This document shows positions 12,952 to 54,088 of a DNA stretch of 64,000 bases, piece after piece. The number at the start of each line of letters is the position of its first letter. The first letter of the stretch is position 1. The DNA comes from Tetraselmis striata (Eukaryota; Chlorophyta; Chlorodendrophyceae; Chlorodendrales; Chlorodendraceae), in the NCBI GenBank assembly GCA_006384855.1, contig VCJN01002795.1, positions 1-64,000 of the forward strand, given 5' to 3'. A program made the position numbers and the translations under genes. Under the pieces are notes generated by a model. That model ran no database searches, was not told the origin of the DNA, and saw only the letters and a program-made list of their open reading frames with translations.

Positions 12952-13204
12952 TACATCCCTTGTCCGCTCGGTAGAGCGGTCGTCTCGTGTACGAGAGGTA
13001 CCGGGTTCGATTCCTGGCCGATGTATTTCGGCAATATCGGCCCGGCGTGTCCCGGGTTTCCTCGGTTGATGCATTAGCCCTTCGGGGTTCGAATGAGGCA
13101 ATGGTCTATGGGCTATGCCAGACCTACGACTGCAGTTGGCGCACGAGGTCAAGTGCTGGGGCGGCTTCGGCCGATGTCCCGGGGCGAACTTTACTTTACT
13201 TTAC
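12952..13204 (+). mobile_element. tRNA-derived SINE, copy 1
   Basis: The head resembles a tRNA: a D-arm-like CCGCTCGGTAGAGCGG and a perfect B-box-type GGGTTCGATTCC near 13003-13014. A body of about 190 bp shared with two other copies follows, ending in a TTTAC repeat tail. The direct repeat GGTAAAACTAG flanks it at 12941-12951 and 13205-13215 and is the target-site duplication. Such elements are transcribed by RNA polymerase III and moved by a LINE's reverse transcriptase. It is the most complete of the three copies. Confidence 0.88.
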
Positions 13205-30311: not shown

Positions 30312-31578
30312 CGGCAGATTTTCTGGTCACTGTGATTTCGTGATGCATTGATGCGCGCGCGCCGCATGCTGGATCGTTGGCTGCGACGCGGCGGCATTAC
30401 ATGCACGCAGCTATCTATTGATGATGATATATAGTACGGCGGCATAATCTGATTTAATTTCGATTAATTTTCAATACGTCGGGCAATATATATCGGGCGG
30501 CAAGCGTGGCTTTTTCAAATACTAGCCGCGAAGGATTACATACCGGCCTTTGCTGAAAATGCCGAATCAAATTTCCCGAACGGGCAACACTGCCGGTACC
30601 TACCGCCCTAGTAGTAGGGTGGCGTGATAGCAGACTATCTGTAGGTAAGGAGCATTGTCACCCAATTGGCCACACGAGCGTTTGGCCATATTTCGTACCT
30701 TTCTTGGCAGAACTTTGCGGAAAATTAACCGTTTGCTAAGCTGTTTTCGCAGCTAGACAGCGTAGATTTTGCATCAAAATGTACGGGGTCGGCTGGGACC
30801 GAAAGATCCACGACTGGTACGGGGCCGCCAGACCGGATGGTGTCCGGAAAGGCGCCGCGCGTCCCGAGCCCCCGCCGGTGTTTGTAAATTACATGCCACC
30901 AGCGATCACGTGGCTCATCGGGACAGTACATTCCGCTATGCTGCTCTCGGCCTCTCATCACGGCTAAGACGCCGGGAAAGCCTGACTAATTGCTGCCACA
31001 CCTGGGCTTATCGGACACGCAACACCCCTGTGGGATGACGTATATCAAATGATATGCACTCCCCACCTCAGGTGCTTTCACAACTAACCAGACTAACCCT
31101 AATCTAAATCGAGCAGCATCCGGAAACGTACAACACAAGCGAATAAATTGTCTCCGGGCGGGTGGGTGGGAGACAATATAGTCGGGTGCCTTCCAACAAC
31201 TGAAGGCGCCCCCGGTCCGCGGCCGCCCTTTATACTCGGTTAAAGGGCGTCGCCGGACCGGCGCCGGCCGGTACTGGCGTACCGGGCCGGCAGGGTCGTC
31301 ACTTAACCCTGACGGCGCTGCGAAAACCAGGGTTTCCTAGGTCGTTCCTCCCAAGGAAACCCTACAGTTTTCGCAGCTAGACAGCGTAGATTTTGCATCA
31401 AAATGTACGGGGTCGGCTGGGACCGAAAGATCCAACAGATGAAAGAACAGTGGCCGGTCTGGCGGGGCCCGTACACGGGCATAAGCGAGCCAAGTTACAC
31501 AGGGAATTATATTCAATTAAGTACAGACACAGGGATGGGGTACCACCAGTACGGTGTAAATTGCCACTAGGCCGGGAC

Positions 31579-32931
31579 TTAAGTTGCTTCCCGGGAGGGA
31601 TTCGAGTCAGTGTCGGATGGTGAACCGTCACCGTCACCATCGTCCAGTTCGTCCTCTTCGGCAAGTGACAGAATCGCTCGCGACACGGAAAGGACGTGCT
31701 CTTCATCCAGCCCCATATAGCGGAGCTGAGCAGATGTTGACTTCCAGCCACCATGCTGGCCCCATGTTGCGAACGGGATGTCTGCGTTAGCAGCGGCGGA
31801 AGCGCCGCCACTTCGGCTGGACTGGGTGCCGAATCGGGATAGGAAAGCGGATTCAGTCATCGCAGGGGTGAGCAGCGGGCCCAACCACCGTGCGAGGTAG
31901 CGTCTGAATGTGGGGTACTCAATAGGGGAAGATGAAGGAACCATCCCCAGCTCGCCCTTGTGCCGTAGGACTGTGCCGCTGAACCCCGGGAACACTGGTA
32001 GGGTGGGTGTTGCCCAGCGGATCATGACTGCCTGGTACCGTCGCAGGAGTCCATATACGCACACCACGGCGCCGTGCATCTTGGCGACCCGCACCTTGCC
32101 ACACAGGCGGTGCTGGTCGTTCTTGCGCTTCACGAAGCGGAATTCTAGGTAAGTCGGGAGGAAGGAGACGTCCTCCCACCGGAGGACCCGGAGGTCGCTG
32201 TAGCGGCAGAAGCCGGCAAAACTGACGGCTGCGGCAACTGCCACTATCCAGGAACAAATACCCGAGTCGTCCTTGCAGCGAAGGCGGACCAGCTTCGCGA
32301 TGTCAGACCATGCGAAGGGCTCCTTGGCGTTCTTCACGGCGAGCCCCAGGGTGCGCTTGGCTGCTGCCCGGACAGAGGTGCAACACGGGGACAAGGTAGG
32401 ACTGGGATGCATATTCAGCCGATGCATCTGCGATATAGCCGCAGACGCAGACCTGATCACTGAATAGCTGTTGGTAGAACGGGCGTCCAACCGAGCTTGT
32501 AAAAACATAGCCACCACAATCGGGGCTGCTGGCATTGGGCACATGGGAGGTGACCGAGCTTCGCAGAACATCACAAAGCGATTCCATATGTAGGCATAGC
32601 CACGATTAGAGCCAGCAGCCCACTGTTGCGGAGCTGAAGAGATCAAAGCATTAAACAGAGATGTGCCGGCCACATCGGAGGGAGCCACCGGGTTACATGG
32701 CCAGGCGGATGTACACCCACGGGTGATGGCTGACTCATGGGCCGTGACTGTCACACCACTGTGGGTGGAGGCAGCGATGGCGTGTTGGGGAGCGCCGCGC
32801 GCTGGGCCGGCAGTCGATGCGCAGAGCAAGGACGCGCCAGTTCCTGGAGCAGCTCGGGCGGCTGTTACCACTGCCCTCGCCAGAACTGAATAGCTCCTCG
32901 CCGCTGTCGAGCATGACCCAATCGACCACAC
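31579..32931 (-). CDS. Tyrosine recombinase (integrase) of the PAT-like element
   Basis: A frame of 450 codons; its 5' part overlaps the 3' end of the RT frame by about 200 bp in another phase. The N-terminal half fits a core-binding domain (WNRFVMFCEARSPP, LQARLDARSTNSYSVIRSA). The catalytic half has the first Arg in AGFCRYSDLRVL, an HxxR-box position reading TQSSRSGGAS, GQHGGW for the second His/Trp position, and the nucleophile Tyr in LRYMGL. The first residue of the HxxR box is Gln rather than the usual His, which may reduce activity or be a lineage trait. The C-terminus is a Glu/Asp-rich tail. It would insert the circular DNA copy of the element. Confidence 0.88.
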   Translation of the reverse strand: MWSIGSCSTAARSYSVLARAVVTAARAAPGTGASLLCASTAGPARGAPQHAIAASTHSGVTVTAHESAITRGCTSAWPCNPVAPSDVAGTSLFNALISSAPQQWAAGSNRGYAYIWNRFVMFCEARSPPMCPMPAAPIVVAMFLQARLDARSTNSYSVIRSASAAISQMHRLNMHPSPTLSPCCTSVRAAAKRTLGLAVKNAKEPFAWSDIAKLVRLRCKDDSGICSWIVAVAAAVSFAGFCRYSDLRVLRWEDVSFLPTYLEFRFVKRKNDQHRLCGKVRVAKMHGAVVCVYGLLRRYQAVMIRWATPTLPVFPGFSGTVLRHKGELGMVPSSSPIEYPTFRRYLARWLGPLLTPAMTESAFLSRFGTQSSRSGGASAAANADIPFATWGQHGGWKSTSAQLRYMGLDEEHVLSVSRAILSLAEEDELDDGDGDGSPSDTDSNPSREAT

Positions 32932-34801
32932 AGTCAGCCAGGTGTCTACCGTCAGGAGCTACTAAAGTCCACCAGGACTGACTAGGCCATAGCGGTACTA
33001 TGACTGTAGCGACTGCACGGTCAGCTTTCAGCTTGCGCACAACTCGGCCAATGCAGCTAAACGGAGCGTTAATCCAATTATTCACATTACCACCCCAGAA
33101 GTGGCTGAAAGCATCGACTCCTTCGCATCCTGGGCACCAGAACCGCGAGTAGAATCTCGGTACTTGATGGTTCAGGTCGGATGCGAACCGGTCGACATGG
33201 TGGATGCCCCACTTCAGGCTGAGGCGCCGGAAAAACTTGGGCAGCAGTTGCCAGTCATCTTTGTCGAGCATCTTGGAAATCTCGTCGGAGTCCGGATTCT
33301 CATCGCGGGACGCCCACACAATAGAGAGAGCTGCTCCCAAGGAGAGACACAAGAGGTAGACCTGTTGAGCGACAGAGTTCAGCGACAGGCTCGAGCGAGA
33401 GCCGTGCCGGCAAACCGGTAGCATACTTTTATTATCCACCTGGACTTGCACTCGTCTGCCTGCGATCAGGTGTGACAGGGACTTCAAAACGAAGAGAAGA
33501 CCACGAGTCTCACGGTGTGTCGAGGACTCGACGCGTTCCCACGGAAGGAAGAAGCCATGAGCTTTCGCGACGGGATCTGAGCTGCCATCAGTCGGTCTGG
33601 CTAAACCGCCCCAGCCGATGCCAGAAGCATCACACTCCAGAAAAACGGACAGTTTGCTGTCCAGGTCAGGTACGATGCGCCCAGTAAACTGCTGCCTAGA
33701 CACTCGGGCCCAGAACCGTAGCTCCTCACGGGATTCCTCAGAGAGGGCAACGTGGTGACCCCACTGTTCTGCTTGCGCAATGTTGGCATACAGACCTCTA
33801 GAAAAGAGGCGAGAAACTGGGCCCAATGCTAGCCCCATGGAAATCAATTTCCCAGTACAGCTGGCCAAGAACTTGACTTTGTGGCGCTTGCGGTGGCCAT
33901 GCAGTAGGGACTGGATGTCAAGCTGAAGGGCATCCCATCGCTTCTGAGGCACAGAGAAGGTGCCGGCCACGGTGTCCAGGTCAAACCCCAGGTGGGTGAT
34001 GGTGGAGCTAGGGCGCAGACTGGATTTTTTGAAGTTGATGTTGACATGGGCGCGCTCAACATCGGCCAGCACTCGCTGAGTCGTTAAGTGCGCCTTTCTG
34101 ACAGAGCCAGAGATGAACAACCAGTCATCCAGATAGCAGAGCATCCTGATGCCCTTACTGCGCCAGTGTCGCACCAGGACTCCCATAACTTTAGAAAAGC
34201 AGCGAGGGGCATCAGACAGCCCGAAGCATAGAACTCGCCAGGTGTAGAATCTCCCTCTCCATTCAAACCCGCTGTAAGGTGCAGCTGAGTCATGGAGGCG
34301 GACATGGTAGTAGCCCTGGGTCAGGTCCATGCTGGTCAGCATGTCGCCGGGATTCACCAAGTCTGACAGCTTAGATAACGACTCCATCCTGAAGGGAGTG
34401 TCAACCAAGTGTTTGTTGACATGCCGCTGATCGCAGATCAGCCTGAGTCCACCATGGGGTTTGGGGACCACACCCAAAGGGTTCAGCACCACAGGGCGCA
34501 CAGGTTCCTCTCTGATATGGCCCAGCGGCAATAACAGAGCGATCTGCCCATCAATGAAATCGGGGTGCTGCAGCGCGGAAGGGTGATTTGGCAGGTGGCT
34601 GGGTGGTGCCGGACCATCAGCCCAGTTCATACGGTAGCCATGCCTGACCCAGTCTCTGACCTGACTGTCTCTGACTGAATCAGTAATGCTGTCCCAAAAT
34701 TGCCAGCCATCGCGGATAACACCAGCTGATTCCACAGGGGAATTGACGTCCAGAGCTGGCTCATGAGGGAGCTCAAAATTAGCCGACGATAAAACTGTCA
34801 C
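32735..34801 (-). CDS. Reverse transcriptase-RNase H of the PAT-like element
   Basis: 688 codons. Reverse transcriptase motifs in order: NPLGVVPKPHGGLRLICDQR, motif A SMDLTQGYYHVRL, motif B FGLSDAPRCFSKVM, and the catalytic YLDD in MLCYLDDWLF. RNase H follows with DASGIGWGG, ETRGLLFVLKSL and QVDNKSMLPV, supplying the acidic catalytic residues. The C-terminal part (DRFASDLNHQVPRFYSRFW, APFSCIGRVVRKL) is the extra domain seen after RNase H in many DIRS-order elements. The first ATG of the open frame at 34801 was taken as the start. The frame has no internal stop. Confidence 0.92.
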   Translation of the reverse strand: MTVLSSANFELPHEPALDVNSPVESAGVIRDGWQFWDSITDSVRDSQVRDWVRHGYRMNWADGPAPPSHLPNHPSALQHPDFIDGQIALLLPLGHIREEPVRPVVLNPLGVVPKPHGGLRLICDQRHVNKHLVDTPFRMESLSKLSDLVNPGDMLTSMDLTQGYYHVRLHDSAAPYSGFEWRGRFYTWRVLCFGLSDAPRCFSKVMGVLVRHWRSKGIRMLCYLDDWLFISGSVRKAHLTTQRVLADVERAHVNINFKKSSLRPSSTITHLGFDLDTVAGTFSVPQKRWDALQLDIQSLLHGHRKRHKVKFLASCTGKLISMGLALGPVSRLFSRGLYANIAQAEQWGHHVALSEESREELRFWARVSRQQFTGRIVPDLDSKLSVFLECDASGIGWGGLARPTDGSSDPVAKAHGFFLPWERVESSTHRETRGLLFVLKSLSHLIAGRRVQVQVDNKSMLPVCRHGSRSSLSLNSVAQQVYLLCLSLGAALSIVWASRDENPDSDEISKMLDKDDWQLLPKFFRRLSLKWGIHHVDRFASDLNHQVPRFYSRFWCPGCEGVDAFSHFWGGNVNNWINAPFSCIGRVVRKLKADRAVATVIVPLWPSQSWWTLVAPDGRHLADCVVDWVMLDSGEELFSSGEGSGNSRPSCSRNWRVLALRIDCRPSARRSPTRHRCLHPQWCDSHGP

Positions 34802-35253
34802 AAAATGCCAACGCCACAGACAGCATCATAGTGGTCAGCAAGCAGCTTGGATGACTGCTGCATAAATCAAACAGTGAGTTTGAAGTCACAATCGTCTGAA
34901 ACTGAAAATAACAGAATTTTCAAAATAAATATCGCTCCGACACAACGAGAGATATGAAACGTCACACAGGGTGTGCCGATCTTCACACGAATGCATCAGC
35001 CAACTTAGTGAAAGTTGGGGGGACAACTGCCAGGGGCAGCAAAGAGTCGCAGGGAACATCATGTACATTACAAACGAGGTATCTCTCGAGGATACACCAT
35101 CTAACAGGTGACTCTCCCGGAGGAGATCAGAGCTGCGATAACACGAGCCTGAGCTCAGCTCCCGGAGGAGGGCTAACAGCTGCCCGGAGGCCTAACTGCA
35201 GCTACACGAACACCATCACTGGCCAGGCCAGGAGGATTGCAGACTCCGCAGCT

Positions 35254-36303
35254 TCAGCGACGAGCACTCGGGCAGTCCCTACTGAAGTGACCTTTCCTCT
35301 GGCAGCGATAGCATGTGATGTCTGCAGCAGAAGATCGACTAGAAGGAGGCTTCTCCTCGCGGCGGCCGCTCTCCCTCCGGTTGTCGCTCCCGCGGCGAAA
35401 CGACTCTGGCTTGCGAGAAGAGGAAGAAGGCTTGGCGCGCGAAGAGGAAGAAGAAGGTTTCTTGGCCTTGACCTTCTCCAGCGCCTTCTTCAGCTCCTTG
35501 TTGTCGGCTGAGCCCTTCTCGCCGAGAGGGTCCACAGCATCGAACTCCTTGGCGACTTCCGCGCCGTACTCGTGTTCTACATGCAGCTTCTTGCCACGCT
35601 TGTTAATCCGAAGAGCCACAGTAGTGCACAAAGCTAGAGCTGCGGTAATCGACTTGAACAGCTCCGCAGACGAAGCTGGCGAAGAAGCAGGAAGATCGGT
35701 GCCGTCCTCTACTAAGTCACGCAGAGGCTCCTCCGCCGGTGCCAAAAAGTCATAGATCTGGAAGACGTCGTCTAGGTCGCGCTGAAGGTTACGAACGTCA
35801 GCGGTATGGCGGCGGTGAACCTTACCATCTTTGTCTAGCCATCCATCCTCAGGTGCGTTGATGAGGCGAGATGGAGCTTCCGCCGCCGGAGGTTGAGCAG
35901 GTCTCTTGCCCTTGCGGTCGTAGTCGGCGTCCCCCTCCGCAACGCGTTTCGAAGCTGAAGCCGAAGTAGACGGACCACTCGACGACGCGACTGCCTGCCT
36001 AAGCTCAGAGACCTCACGTTCAATACGGAGTAGAGCAGCAGACGTATCAGCAACTGCCTGTCTAGCGGCGACGAGAGGGGGAGATTCAGCTACCCCGTCT
36101 ACAGGTGGAGTGTCACCACCTAGGACAGTGAGATGATTTTCGCGGGTAACGAGTTGCTCGCGAAGAGCTCTGCGAGAGTCCAGTAACTCGTTCCAGACGA
36201 GTTCAAACTTGTCCACTGCTAAAACAGAGACGAGAACGCAAGGTGACAGCACCACAAGCGAGACAAGGAGCCACGCCCAAGACGGACTCGCGGAGCGAGC
36301 CAT
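35254..36303 (-). CDS. Gag-like protein with CCHC zinc knuckle (PAT-like element)
   Basis: 349 residues from ATG 36303; an alternative non-ATG start lies upstream at 36399, inside the B repeat. The C-terminus carries CYRCQRKGHFSRDCPS, a C-x2-C-x4-H-x4-C nucleic-acid-binding knuckle, preceded by Ser/Arg/Lys-rich tracts. The middle is charged and helical (LLRIEREVSELRQAV, LRDLVEDGTDLP). The N-terminus has an unusual hydrophobic run (WAWLLVSLVVLSPCVLVSV) that could be a membrane anchor, or could mean translation starts further downstream. It would package the element RNA. Confidence 0.85.
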   Translation of the reverse strand: MARSASPSWAWLLVSLVVLSPCVLVSVLAVDKFELVWNELLDSRRALREQLVTRENHLTVLGGDTPPVDGVAESPPLVAARQAVADTSAALLRIEREVSELRQAVASSSGPSTSASASKRVAEGDADYDRKGKRPAQPPAAEAPSRLINAPEDGWLDKDGKVHRRHTADVRNLQRDLDDVFQIYDFLAPAEEPLRDLVEDGTDLPASSPASSAELFKSITAALALCTTVALRINKRGKKLHVEHEYGAEVAKEFDAVDPLGEKGSADNKELKKALEKVKAKKPSSSSSRAKPSSSSRKPESFRRGSDNRRESGRREEKPPSSRSSAADITCYRCQRKGHFSRDCPSARR

Positions 36304-36599
36304 GGTGAGTGCCGGGATCAAACACACTACAGAACGCAGAAGAAATTTGAATTTTTGTAGTCGAAGACGAAACGAAAATGTACCAGTCGTAGAAGACAAT
36401 ATAGTCGGGTGCCTTCCAACAACTGAAGGCGCCCCCGGTCCGCGGCCGCCCTTTATACTCGGTTAAAGGGCGTCGCCGGACCGGCGCCGGCCGGTACTGG
36501 CGTACCGGGCCGGCAGGGTCGTCACTTAACCCTGACGGCGCTGCGAAAACCAGGGTTTCCTAAGTCGTTCCTCCCAAGGAAACCCTACAGTTTTGCGCA

Positions 36600-49230: not shown

Positions 49231-49710
49231 GAATTACTGGTACGGGTAGTTATTCATTTACACGCACGGATAGCCAGGGCGGGTACGTGAGGCTACCCGG
49301 AGCGCAACGGCTAGTGTTCTTTTTGGTTTCAAAGTTGAGTCTGGTTTTGCCAAAAAGGTCGCGCAGGCTGTTTTACACGGTCAAGAGCCGAAATTGGCAG
49401 GAAGGTTTAGCGAAAAGCGTGGAGGGAAAACGGAGTCAGGGGGGGCGCTGCGTGGAACGCAGCGAAAACTGGAAGATGGCAGGCTCAGCTGTTCTGGCTG
49501 CTTTTATGTCTACTCGTGCTGCACCCAACAAGGGCGCAACAACAGTTACTAGTTCCCGTACCACTGCGCAGCACTTGTAGCTGAAAAGCGGTTAGGTCAA
49601 GGATGGAAACCCCATAAACTAGTTTAGATCATTTCAAAGTTGAGTCTGGTTTTGCCAGTCTTGAGCGAACGGAGAGAGCGGTGGATTGACGGAGAAGGGG
49701 TAGCGCCAAG

Positions 49711-51076
49711 TCATGAAGGAGGCACTGGGAAGGCCACCGCTGCGGAGTCCTGTTGGACTTGGAAGTGGCGGAGGGGGGCGATGTGTCCAAAGAAGAACCA
49801 CGCGCCAGGAGAAGGAAGAACGTTGGGGTCGATGTAGTCCAGAACGACATCAGAGTTAGTGGCCCAACCGCCCTGGTAGCGGATGTGGGACAGTGGCGCT
49901 CCAATGGCGTTTGCTGCAGAGGCTGCGCCCTTGCGTAGACTGTGTGAAGTCCAGGAAGTGCCAGCAGGGGGGGCAGCGTTGACTAGGTTGACTGCTGTAG
50001 ACAACCAGTCTGACATCGTAGCAGCAGTCCAAGGTTTCGACTGCTCAGCCACATTGACAGCCCAGAAGTTGGAGGTAGCCAAGCCAACAGTAACCAGGGG
50101 GACAGACTGGACGTTGTCGATGAAGTAGCGCAAGAGACGTGCCACTCGAGGGTGCTCGGACACTGGAAGGAGAAGTACGCGCAGGTCGTCAGGTCCTCGC
50201 CGGCCGGCGCGACCCTTCTCGCGGTAGATCTGCAAGGTGATGTTGTAGGTGTCGACATGCACATCTTGCACTCGACAGGAGACGCCAGTAAGGCCCCTGG
50301 CAAAGAACAGGAAGTTGACAACCGAGGCCAAGAGGGCTCGGTAGTCGAGGTGGGACTCGAACAACAGTAGCAGTAGTCGCCTCTAGCGGACTGATGTTCT
50401 CGGAGTCGTGGCAGAACTCAGCGAACTGAGCTAACCTGCCGGCGTAGCTCTTGAGGGTCTGAGCGCTGAGGGAGCTGGAGAGCAGGTCGAGCGTCCGCTG
50501 GCCTAGCTCGTCTGAGCCGAACGCGTCCTGTAGTCGGGATCGCAGTGACGCAGCCCACGGAGCGATAGCTGCGGGCTCGTCGATTACGTTAGTGCGTCGT
50601 TTTACTGACAGAGTTCCACCGGCACGGCTACTGTTCGCAAAGTACTCGGCAGCAGCGGTTAGGTTTCCGGCGGTTGGCCGGTAGTTGCCGGACGGGTTTG
50701 CAGTAGCTCCAGTACGGGTTTGCGGGGCTAGGTTCAGGTAGGAGGGCCGCCCCGCGCGCCCTTCGCGCTCATAGCGCCTGTCCCGTGCGTAACGTACACG
50801 CGCGAAACTTGGTCGTTGCGAACCGGTTGTAACTCGTAGTGTAACAACCGACGAACGCAGAGATGGGGTTGTAAGAAAAGCGGATGGTTGAACCGCCATG
50901 TGCAGGTGTGCGGATGGTTGAGCCGCACTCGGCTGTAGCTGTAAGAAGCGCCGCACCGAGGAAGGTCTAAATGAAGTCTGTAAGGTGGGGGGGTCAGGTC
51001 CTGACACAGGGCGCTCATCCCGCCGTTGAGCTGCAAGGGTGCGTCTTGCGGCGGTCACCGAAAGGTGGCCTCGCAA
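49711..51076 (-). pseudogene. Broken tyrosine recombinase of the RT-less element
   Basis: Two frames: 51076-50189, whose end (TLKSYAGRLAQFAEFC, then ATTATVV) is the start of a core-binding domain, and 50364-49711, the catalytic part (NFLFFARGLTGV with the first Arg, SHSLRKGAAS as an intact HxxR box, YQGGW, and Tyr in VLDYIDP). They switch frame near 50360. Most of the expected core-binding segment between the two halves is missing. The catalytic residues I can see are intact, so the break looks like a deletion plus frameshift, although an intron cannot be excluded. Confidence 0.72.
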
Positions 51077-51112
51077 GGCTCCTGCAGCTCCGACGAGCGG
51101 CGCCCCACACCG

Positions 51113-52021
51113 TCACTCATGCTCACCTTCGCGGCCCCGTCCACGTCCGCCGCCACGTCCTCGCCCACGCCCGCGACCTGCAGCTGCAGCCGCCACTCGA
51201 GAAGTAGCGGTCGCCTTGGCGCTGCTGGCAACGGTCGCCTCGAAGACACGACGCTCGTAGTCCCGCATGAGGTCCCCAAAGATCGCGGAACCCAGATGCT
51301 CCGAAGCAGGCTGAAAATGCTGGGCTCGCAGCACATCCAGAACACCTTGGTCACCGTGCACCCGCTTGATCTCATTGAGCTTCCGTAGGAAGGCCAAACG
51401 AAACCGAAACGCCTTGTCGATGGCCTCGGCGTGGTTCCGGGCTCTCGCGAGGTAGGGGGTGAAGTCCTGGTTGTTGGACGGGACGTAGGGCAATAGCTCG
51501 TCGAGCGCCACGAAAAGGGCGGCCATGTGGGCCCCGAAACACGACATCCACAAGTACTCCTCCTGAGCCGGCAGACGCCGGTCATCCTGCTTGAGGTACT
51601 CGTTCGTTAGGTCGGTGCTCAAAGGGAAAAGTCCAGGCACTCGGCTGACCGGTCGAACGGCCTCGTAACCAGACTCTGCTCTCTGCAGTAGCTCTGGCAC
51701 CGCGAGGTAATCATCCTCGGCACTCACGGATTTTGCTCCGACACGGCCGCTCTGGGCTAGCTCTAGCAAGTCGGGGCGCTCTGCGGCTCCCCCGCTGCCT
51801 GTCGGCTGTCTCGCGAAGCGCTGCCCTGAGCCGGAGCCATGTGCCCCTTCTCCATCAACAACGCGATCACGAGCCGTCAATTGTGCCACAGCTGTAGCCA
51901 GCTCTCGCAGTAATGAAGACTGGGCCCTCATATCTGCGTTCAGCGACTGCAACGTCGGCTCAGCGACGGGTTCTTCTCCATCTGACATAGTAACGCACGG
52001 ACGTACGGACGAGAATATCAC
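51113..52021 (-). CDS. Gag-like protein of the RT-less element
   Basis: An intact 302-codon frame. It starts in or close to the first ATG after the 5' repeat, has a helical N-terminus (SLNADMRAQSSLLRELATAV), a conserved-looking middle (YLWMSCFGAHMAALFVALDE, AIDKAFRFRLAFLRKLNEI) and an Arg/Gly-rich RGRGRG tail that probably binds nucleic acid in place of a zinc knuckle. I infer gag from its position before the YR and its composition. Confidence 0.65.
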   Translation of the reverse strand: MIFSSVRPCVTMSDGEEPVAEPTLQSLNADMRAQSSLLRELATAVAQLTARDRVVDGEGAHGSGSGQRFARQPTGSGGAAERPDLLELAQSGRVGAKSVSAEDDYLAVPELLQRAESGYEAVRPVSRVPGLFPLSTDLTNEYLKQDDRRLPAQEEYLWMSCFGAHMAALFVALDELLPYVPSNNQDFTPYLARARNHAEAIDKAFRFRLAFLRKLNEIKRVHGDQGVLDVLRAQHFQPASEHLGSAIFGDLMRDYERRVFEATVASSAKATATSRVAAAAAGRGRGRGRGGGRGRGREGEHE

Positions 52022-52207
52022 ACTCGGGTGGCGAGCCGGGTGTGGTCTTGAACAACCTGGGGTGACCTTGCTCGCAACGGGTTACGAGACAGTTTTTACA
52101 TCGCTGCGTGGAACGCAGCGAAAACTGGAAGATGGCAGGCTCAGCTGTTCTGGCTGCTTTTATGTCTACTCGTGCTGCACCCAACAAGGGCGCAACAACA
52201 GTTACTA

Positions 52208-53559
52208 CACCCCTCCACATAAGTTTGGGGTCCTTTTTTGGCTGAATATGAAATGAAAAATACTAGGGTATCTAAACGTAGGGCTTTAGGGCTGGAACCC
52301 GGGAATGTTTTAGGTTGTTATAAAACCTTTTGCTTGATAGGGTCTAAATTATAACCTATTACCCTAAGAATAGGGTATTGCGATCTGGCGCGGGGCTCAA
52401 AGGGCATGACGCAGTCATGCACGACAATACATGTTATTGGCACATATATGATGGCCCACATGCATAGAGCATTGTATGGTGCAATGCCCGTAGATGTGTG
52501 AGGAAACATAGTAGCTCGCGGGTTGGGTGGGTTTGGGTGGGCATAGTCACGTAAGGCAGAGTGGGCACACGTGCGTGTGACGATGCTAGGACCAGTGCAG
52601 TTCTGCCCACTGCAAGCGACACCCCCTTGACTTCAAACGCTTATAGCGGCTCAGGGAGTGCTCCAAAAATTCTAAAAAAATGCGCAAAAAAATCCTTGCG
52701 TCAAACGCGACAGGTGAATTTCGATTTTTTGAGCACCTAATTTGCACGTTTTGACCACTTTCTAGCGATGAACATAAAATACATCAATCACGGCATCCTT
52801 TCGCAACACTCAACCTCAACATGGGGGCGTACGTAGCTTTGCGCTATGTGTGTCCCCTTAATCCATACGCATTTGTGTGACAGTGTTATGAATGTAGATG
52901 CACACGGGCGGCGCAAACTTGCCACATGCTCCCTCTCTAGCCATGTCCTCGATGGCCAACAACATTGTGCTGTTTTCAACATATTATTTTTGCTGATATT
53001 CAAGCATTTAATAGCGCGCTGCTATGTGGCATTCTACTTGTGATTCGGCGCAATTGCCATGCGTGCACGTGACCCCCATTGATGCGCTCTCGCCTAAGCC
53101 AAGAAGGGCTCAATAAGCCTTTCATGCGTGAGTAGGCAACAATAACAACACCATTTTTGGCCGAACATCACGCCATGTAGTGGTGAAACTGTAATTTAGG
53201 GCTTGTGCAATACCCTTAGTGACCTAATCTTGGTGCCCCACACATGTTGTAGGCGAACCTTACACTAAAGATGGCAGCATGCCAGTACGGCGTGGATTTG
53301 CGCGTTGGATGTATGCGTACGAAGGGATGGCGCAACTTGTTATTTTCCAGTGCAAGTTTTACACGCATTGATTTGCCATTTCTCGAGGGGCGTAGAACGA
53401 CGCATGCCCTGTCGCACGGTTAGGCCTAGAGCGCGCCCCCATTTTTTCCCAAGTCGACCTCGCCCTTAGTCACTTGCATGCAATTGCCCACGCCGTATTT
53501 TCTACATGACATGCGCATGTCGAACAAAACTGCAAAACCCAAACTTATGTGGAGGGGTG
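52208..53559. mobile_element. TA-flanked DNA transposon, non-autonomous, copy 2
   Basis: 1352 bp, the inverted-orientation near-twin of 18074-19427, with the same CACCCCTCCACATAAG ends. It sits in the B repeat of the RT-less YR element. The other B copy at 49446-49633 is the empty site (GTTACTAGTTCCCG), so the duplicated target is exactly TA (52206-52207 and 53560-53561). Confidence 0.95.
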
Positions 53560-54088
53560 TAGTTCCCGTACCACTGCGCAGCACTTGTAGCTGAAAAAGC
53601 GGTTAGGTCAAGGATGGAAACCCCATAAACTAGTTTAGATCATTACAGGGAGAGCGTCGTCTAGAGAACGGCTAGTAGTGCTTTCATGCCTGACCACTTT
53701 CATACCTGACGAACGATGGGCGGCCCGCCGGCCACGCCAACCCTGTGTGGCCAACTACCACGGCGCACCGGACGGCTTGGCAGCAGTTGAGTGGCATATA
53801 TGGGATAGTGCAATCGCCGGACCGCGGCCATCTTACCTCCTCTCGACACCCCTCCCTGCTGAGGAGGTTCCGAAGCGTAAAACTCGAGCCCCGGTATAGC
53901 CGGTTGCTGATGTGCGAGCCCGCCGTGTACGCTCCGTGCTAGTACGCGGGCGCGTGCCTCGGCATGCCGTCGCGCCGTTAGCTACCTGCAGATCACAGGC
54001 GGGGCTATACGGTTGGCCGGGCGACTCGCCGACTGGGTACCCGGGCGGCGGCAAGGCGCTCCCCCCCCTCCGGCCCGGTGCGCAGTGT

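Follow-up and report, generated by a model that had tools for sequence, protein, structure and literature searches.

The 64,000-nt stretch of the Tetraselmis striata genome analysed here (contig VCJN01002795.1, positions 1 to 64,000; hereafter the window) carries on its minus strand, at 49327-53642, an element that encodes a gag-like protein and a tyrosine recombinase (YR) and lacks a reverse transcriptase (RT). Comparison of its sequence with relatives throughout the genome suggests, with a probability of roughly 0.57, that it represents one half, gag+YR, of a two-part YR retrotransposon whose other half is an RT-only family with similar ends. The order of its parts is A1 - gag-like open reading frame (ORF) - YR - B1 A2 B2, where A is a direct repeat of 186-191 nt and B one of 26 nt, with a 5-nt overlap of B1 and A2. 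Examination of the window ORFs and sequence revealed no RT between or around the gag-like ORF and the YR. The parts of the element, in window coordinates, are as follows:

49327..49352, minus strand: B2, the outer 3' repeat, 26 nt, identical to B1; found by repeat search and present with B1 in all 20 fetched loci
49353..49445, minus strand: spacer between A2 and B2, 93 nt, 100% identical in 20 loci that were themselves picked by identity to this end
49446..49636, minus strand: A2, the internal copy of the 5' repeat, 191 nt including the 5-nt overlap with B1 (repeat search, 20 loci)
49632..49657, minus strand: B1 repeat, 26 nt (repeat search, 20 loci)
49711..50382, minus strand: C-terminal part of the YR, a frame of 223 amino acids (aa) with the HxxR...GGW...Y box aligned to Cre (ORF and domain comparison)
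50357..50358, minus strand: splice-type junction, where 260 nt (GT...AG) found in most relatives seen are missing, which shifts the YR frame
50358..51112, minus strand: N-terminal part of the YR up to the junction; the frame continues in other codons to 50189
51113..52081, minus strand: gag-like ORF, 322 aa from stop to stop, first Met at 51988, RG-rich C-terminus
52102..52207, minus strand: A1, inner part of the 5' repeat (repeat search)
52208..53559, no strand assigned: nested insertion with terminal inverted repeats (CACCCCTCCACATAAG...) and duplicated TA, outside the element proper (repeat search, sequence)
53560..53642, minus strand: A1, outer part of the 5' repeat, the 5' end of the element being TGATCTAAAC (repeat search, flanks)

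An earlier note on this stretch had outlined the same architecture, which stands, while the anatomy it gave has to be amended. A1 of the window copy is interrupted by the 1,352-nt insertion (52208-53559), whose terminal inverted repeats match exactly over at least 22 nt and which, by its TA duplication, can be read as a Tc1/mariner-type non-autonomous element. The gag-like ORF ends in TGA, and the YR continues in the same frame right after it, so that both lie in one frame across the stop codon. The YR itself is broken; the splice-type loss at 50357/50358 shifts its frame before the catalytic part, and the window copy was therefore probably inserted by a YR supplied from elsewhere.

The genome search covered 224 Mb in 2,903 contigs, and the genome position lists used below comprise the first 100 places. 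A 23-nt pattern across the B1-A2 junction occurs 1,163 times at up to two mismatches and not once when read backwards, which exceeds chance; a 25-mer across the gag stop and YR start occurs 1,485 times at up to three mismatches (control 0). For anatomy, 20 loci were fetched out of the 42 genome matches to the window 3' end; as the fetched copies were picked by identity to that end or as the best YR match, their identity and intactness are biased upward. The YR directly follows gag in all 20 loci and in the window, B1 begins 53-54 nt past the YR stop, and repeats, gag and YR together make up about 3.2 kb. The ends of the fetched copies are constant except for a few nucleotides on the 5' side. 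RT was absent between gag and YR in every one of the 20 loci; a single locus, L015, has about 1.1 kb extra inside the YR, with no match to either RT. An origin of the window copy by mere internal deletion, which would have implied an RT between gag and YR in every other copy, was rejected on these 20 loci. For 42 of the first 100 B1-A2 junctions, no exact YR site or gag-stop site (at most one mismatch) is listed within 7 kb, a fraction that lists of this length are too short to resolve.

The 260-nt stretch missing from the window YR begins with GT and ends with AG, and most copies seen retain it; other copies lack 120 nt, starting at a second GT and ending at the same AG. Counted over the genome at up to two mismatches, the 260-nt junction occurs six times, the 120-nt junction three times and the unspliced site 874 times; two of the six 260-nt sites share a two-base variant and perhaps descend from a single older loss. 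The 48 copies of a tree computed with the spliced columns left out include four with the 260-nt loss and two with the 120-nt loss; this tree requires three changes for the former and two for the latter, with starred branches forcing at least two of each; at least four origins of GT-AG losses are thus counted, assuming that a lost stretch is never regained by recombination between copies. Microhomology at the breaks amounts to 1 nt and 0 nt. The gene models P0083 and P0086, representing clusters of 67 and 21 members of which only these representatives were seen, skip exactly the 120 nt.

Four of the nine spliced sites were read at both ends (the window copy, L011, L015 and L016); these copies have complete element ends, A1 and B2, and neither a flanking duplication nor poly(A) was found in the flanks read. 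The marks of a processed pseudogene made by a long interspersed element (LINE), namely target duplication, poly(A) and 5' truncation, are therefore not those of these four copies. Repeated exact GT-AG losses indicate that the RT-less element is copied through spliced RNA by an RT acting in trans. It is well supported by these comparisons that spliced transcripts of the element served as templates for reverse transcription and that the copies were inserted in what seems the normal way; the splice-derived copies show the RNA step of an RT-less YR element directly from sequence. Together with the 20 loci, they support the suggestion of the earlier note that a class of elements retains gag and YR and borrows RT, and they bear out its guess of trans-mobilisation.

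Pfam searches with an intact YR (copy L022) gave matches to PF02899 and PF13495, which correspond to the N-terminal SAM-like domain, above the cut-offs, and to PF00589, the YR catalytic domain, below the cut-off (E 0.0013). The HxxR, GGW and Y of the YR align with Cre; the positions of the first Arg and the Lys were assigned by visual inspection alone. The gag-like ORF matches no Pfam family and no zinc knuckle; PAT elements without a zinc knuckle (Toc3-like) are mentioned in passages of PMC4157794. AlphaFold modelling yielded predictions too poor for fold searches (pLDDT 44 for gag and 32 for YR). Among the best-scoring gag matches (the best 124 of 4,993 candidates), 122 are free of internal stops, and about 120 of the 150 YR matches listed have the 553-aa frame; both lists are ordered best-first and so flatter the intactness of the family. 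The ratio of non-synonymous to synonymous polymorphism (pN/pS), taken over polymorphisms common to at least two copies, is 0.10 for gag (9 non-synonymous against 31 synonymous in 20 copies) and 0.12 for YR (21 non-synonymous against 63 synonymous in 47 copies), and singleton polymorphisms give 0.25 and 0.41, respectively. The low values for shared polymorphisms show purifying selection on both ORFs: the two proteins were maintained as the family expanded. The best 120 of 350 and the best 120 of 336 matches in the protein searches are Tetstr1 models with one exception, the JGI protein P0001 (90% identical), the only non-Tetstr1 protein among the matches listed. Tetstr1 can be read as Tetraselmis striata, and database proteins under this label are nearly identical to those of the element. 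No relative of the YR or the RT was found in viral_contigs.

The joined flanks of L028 equal window positions 13081-13160 over 80 of 80 nt, nothing being duplicated or lost, and those of L010 exactly match a neighbouring unit of the repeat that harbours it; target-site duplication is absent at both, the sites with an exact empty counterpart, and these two clean empty sites fit YR insertion. Six other sites gave only diverged relatives (77-85%) or a self-match: L027 is clean at the joint, L012, L016, L017 and L025 show gaps near the joint against diverged relatives, and L021 matched itself. The gag+YR copies also occur in tandem, at C764 (three 3'-end matches, 3,203 nt apart) and at C2249 (period about 2,916 nt). 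The C764 units begin 16 nt inside A1, as if one A1 site had been hit repeatedly. Three exact gag-stop motifs lie about 14.5 kb apart at C42 (100257, 114857 and 129368), with no listed YR site near, perhaps within a larger repeat unit. Locus L013 contains at 2380-2810 the B1-A2-B2 of a third family, whose ends are close to those of the gag+YR element, and no coding sequence was recognised upstream of it.

As to the RT, its likely source is a family with like ends that apparently encodes RT only, a better candidate than the PAT-like element of the window (30743-36594). A decayed element beside L017 has the same layout as the gag+YR element and like ends, and only RT, RNase H and methyltransferase (MT) were recognised in it. 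A search with its RT gave 150 scored relatives (of 1,808 candidates), with the 763-aa frame in 29 and at least 760 aa in 38. RVT_1 and RNase H are matched above the cut-off in this family, and the Dam-type MT weakly, below it; the RT is of the DIRS/PAT kind, with 28% identity over 606 alignment columns to the RT of the window PAT-like element. The family shows the same A1 - B1 A2 B2 split repeats; its end motif TGTTCTAAACTAGT occurs 405 times and its B1-A2 junction 254 times (control 0 in both cases). Distances were taken for 36 RT hits on contigs covered by the first 100 of the 405 motif places. A1 lies 1,019-1,057 nt ahead of the RT query in 28 of the 36, and the span is 2,753-2,768 nt in 16 of the 21 hits with an end motif on both sides; the other five spans are 1,707, 3,073, 3,437, 12,410 and 26,849 nt, the far motif of the last two probably belonging to another element. 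With 2,289 nt needed for the 763-aa frame and about 175 for A1, the common span is too small to hold gag or YR as well. An RT hit is found 1,689-1,728 nt upstream of 63 of the first 100 RT-type junctions, and at other distances (648, 2,019, 7,204, 7,214 and 7,252 nt) for five more; at C227, which holds a common-span element, B1, A2 and B2 come directly after the RT stop.

The ends of the two families resemble each other well beyond chance. Among the first 26 nt of A, 24 positions agree, and an alignment of 60 nt that spans B1 and the beginning of A2 scores 62, the maximum in 2,000 shuffles being 24. The element ends have the form TG[AT]TCTAAACTAGT, and the end-to-end junctions expected in circles of the two families would read TTTGAAATGATC and TGTGAAATGTTC; the element-internal B1-A2 junction is the product expected from joining the two ends of an element. 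At C109 (147642-150565), motif positions in an otherwise unread element place an RT-type end motif together with the gag-YR stop motif at the expected place, a hint that ends may have been exchanged between the two kinds.

If the two families do form one retrotransposon, the gag+YR element would supply the packaging protein and the recombinase, and the RT-only element the reverse transcriptase. The gag-like protein would package both RNAs, the shared ends would enable the RT to turn both, by way of the A/B repeats, into circles joined at TGAAA/TG, and the YR would insert both kinds of circle; neither element would be able to move alone. Mutual dependence of the two families is what we infer from this distribution of parts. 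The full form of the proposal, an obligate two-part retrotransposon (gag+YR on one side, RT-RNase H-MT on the other) with shared ends and mutual dependence, kept by selection beyond one recent burst, is put forward tentatively, at slightly less than even odds.

Several observations weigh against the two-part reading. The ends of the families are similar without being identical, and diverge in the middle of B; the gag+YR family outnumbers the RT-only family (1,163 versus 254 junctions); and for 32 of the first 100 RT-type junctions none of the 150 scored hits supplies an RT. The gag identity is judged from position, predicted helices and the RG tail, and the structure model is poor (mean pLDDT 44). 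The RT hits of C819, C1006 and C1208 lie 7,252, 7,214 and 7,204 nt before the junction, that is, with about 5.5 kb extra between RT and B1-A2 (C819:37406-44680, C1006:39515-46751 and C1208:6576-13802, content unread), which may stem from one nested insertion common to all three or from a longer element that carries additional genes. Finally, C1156 holds a distant relative of the RT that is preceded by a gag-like ORF. That relative (L011 1-821, minus strand) is 48% identical over the N-terminal 75 aa, and its gag stop TGACGGTGTGG is similar to the one in the gag+YR element and may serve as a translation signal.

The last two observations would also suit the main rival reading, in which both families are deletion derivatives mobilised by a third element, an autonomous one that shares their ends and encodes gag, RT and YR. 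Complementary deletions are, as a matter of general knowledge, the usual origin of non-autonomous elements, and C224 and C343 have 674 and 627 nt extra before the RT. Nevertheless, this explanation appears rather unlikely: the span common to 16 of 21 copies is too short for gag or YR, the regular distance of A1 in 28 of 36 RT hits speaks against it too, and no autonomous element with the same ends was found among the parts of the genome read. A comparison of gag with the gag-like ORF that precedes the RT at C1156 gives E 0.028 and 0.034, a similarity no more than suggestive, and an end-pattern search found no end like that of the gag+YR element before the C1156 gag. A further protein, P0081, in which YR and RT domains are combined, was rejected as a partner; it looks like a gene-model chimera, and its RT reads as the Ty3/gypsy type.

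An RT from an unrelated source in the same cell, be it the window PAT-like element, a Ty3 element or a LINE, is an improbable explanation. The PAT-like element, on the minus strand at 30743-36594, contains a gag with CCHC, an RT/RNase H/Dam-type MT and a YR-like ORF between repeats of 206 nt (A) and 68 nt (B) with a 5-nt overlap, and it is intact in the genome, 23 of 75 matches to its RT being full length without stops. The earlier note had taken it for an autonomous relative of the same architecture; the layout is indeed the same, whereas the kinship is not supported, and the element was rejected as a close relative. The alignments of gag and YR that had been suggested as a check gave no recognisable relation: BLASTP comparison of the two YRs gives E 3.1, a profile comparison aligns 38 columns, all in the generic YR box, at E 0.0065 and a probability of 5.8%, and the gag comparison gives E 0.066. 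The ends of the gag+YR and RT-only families score 16 and 13 against those of the PAT-like element, the local score of 16 for the gag+YR ends falling below the shuffle maximum of 24. Against a LINE, the spliced copies read at both ends have YR-type ends and are not LINE-type insertions. A Crypton-like DNA transposon, moving as DNA with a YR and no RT, would agree with the lack of target duplication at the clean empty sites, and is highly improbable in view of the split direct repeats, the gag-like ORF and the repeated exact GT-AG losses.

The usual view of retrotransposons distinguishes autonomous elements and one-way parasites. Under the two-part reading, two abundant families with near-identical intact copies seem to hold each other's missing parts, like divided-genome viruses, and would offer a natural system for asking how division of labour lasts among selfish elements; they also let one ask which form of the split repeats permits copying and insertion in trans for YR elements. 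Neither a two-part YR retrotransposon nor a study of Tetraselmis retrotransposons was found among the open-access titles and abstract openings listed, a body of literature in which subscription journals are mostly absent.

Among known systems, TOC1 of Chlamydomonas is an RT-less green-algal element with split repeats; the element described here differs from it in that gag and YR remain intact and under purifying selection and in that an RT-only family was found as its candidate partner. HeT-A of Drosophila, which has gag only, is considered to draw on the RT of another element, TART; those are non-LTR telomeric elements, whereas YR elements with shared ends are concerned here. According to passages of the cited works, PAT-like elements and others of the DIRS order have split repeats and RT/RNase H/MT plus YR within one element (PMC6681497, PMC3266345, PMC4157794), and DIRS1-like elements integrate without target duplication (PMC3266345). 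The gag+YR element shares with the PAT-like elements (Pat1, TOC, Kangaroo) the A1...B1 A2 B2 split direct repeats, the YR catalytic box and the lack of target duplication; it shows no match to the zinc knuckle that many, though not all, of those elements have, and it has no RT of its own, gag+YR and RT/RNase H/MT being found here in two elements. PAT-like elements are mentioned for Ectocarpus and Chlamydomonas, with no such split in the passages concerned (PMC12477816, PMC8226300). The Crypton, described in PMC4157794 as having a YR without RT, is a DNA transposon with YR only, without gag, split repeats or spliced copies. BARE2 of barley has no Gag of its own, is packaged by its relative BARE1 and is described as a parasite of it (PMC3735527); the difference is that here neither of the families read has the full set of proteins.

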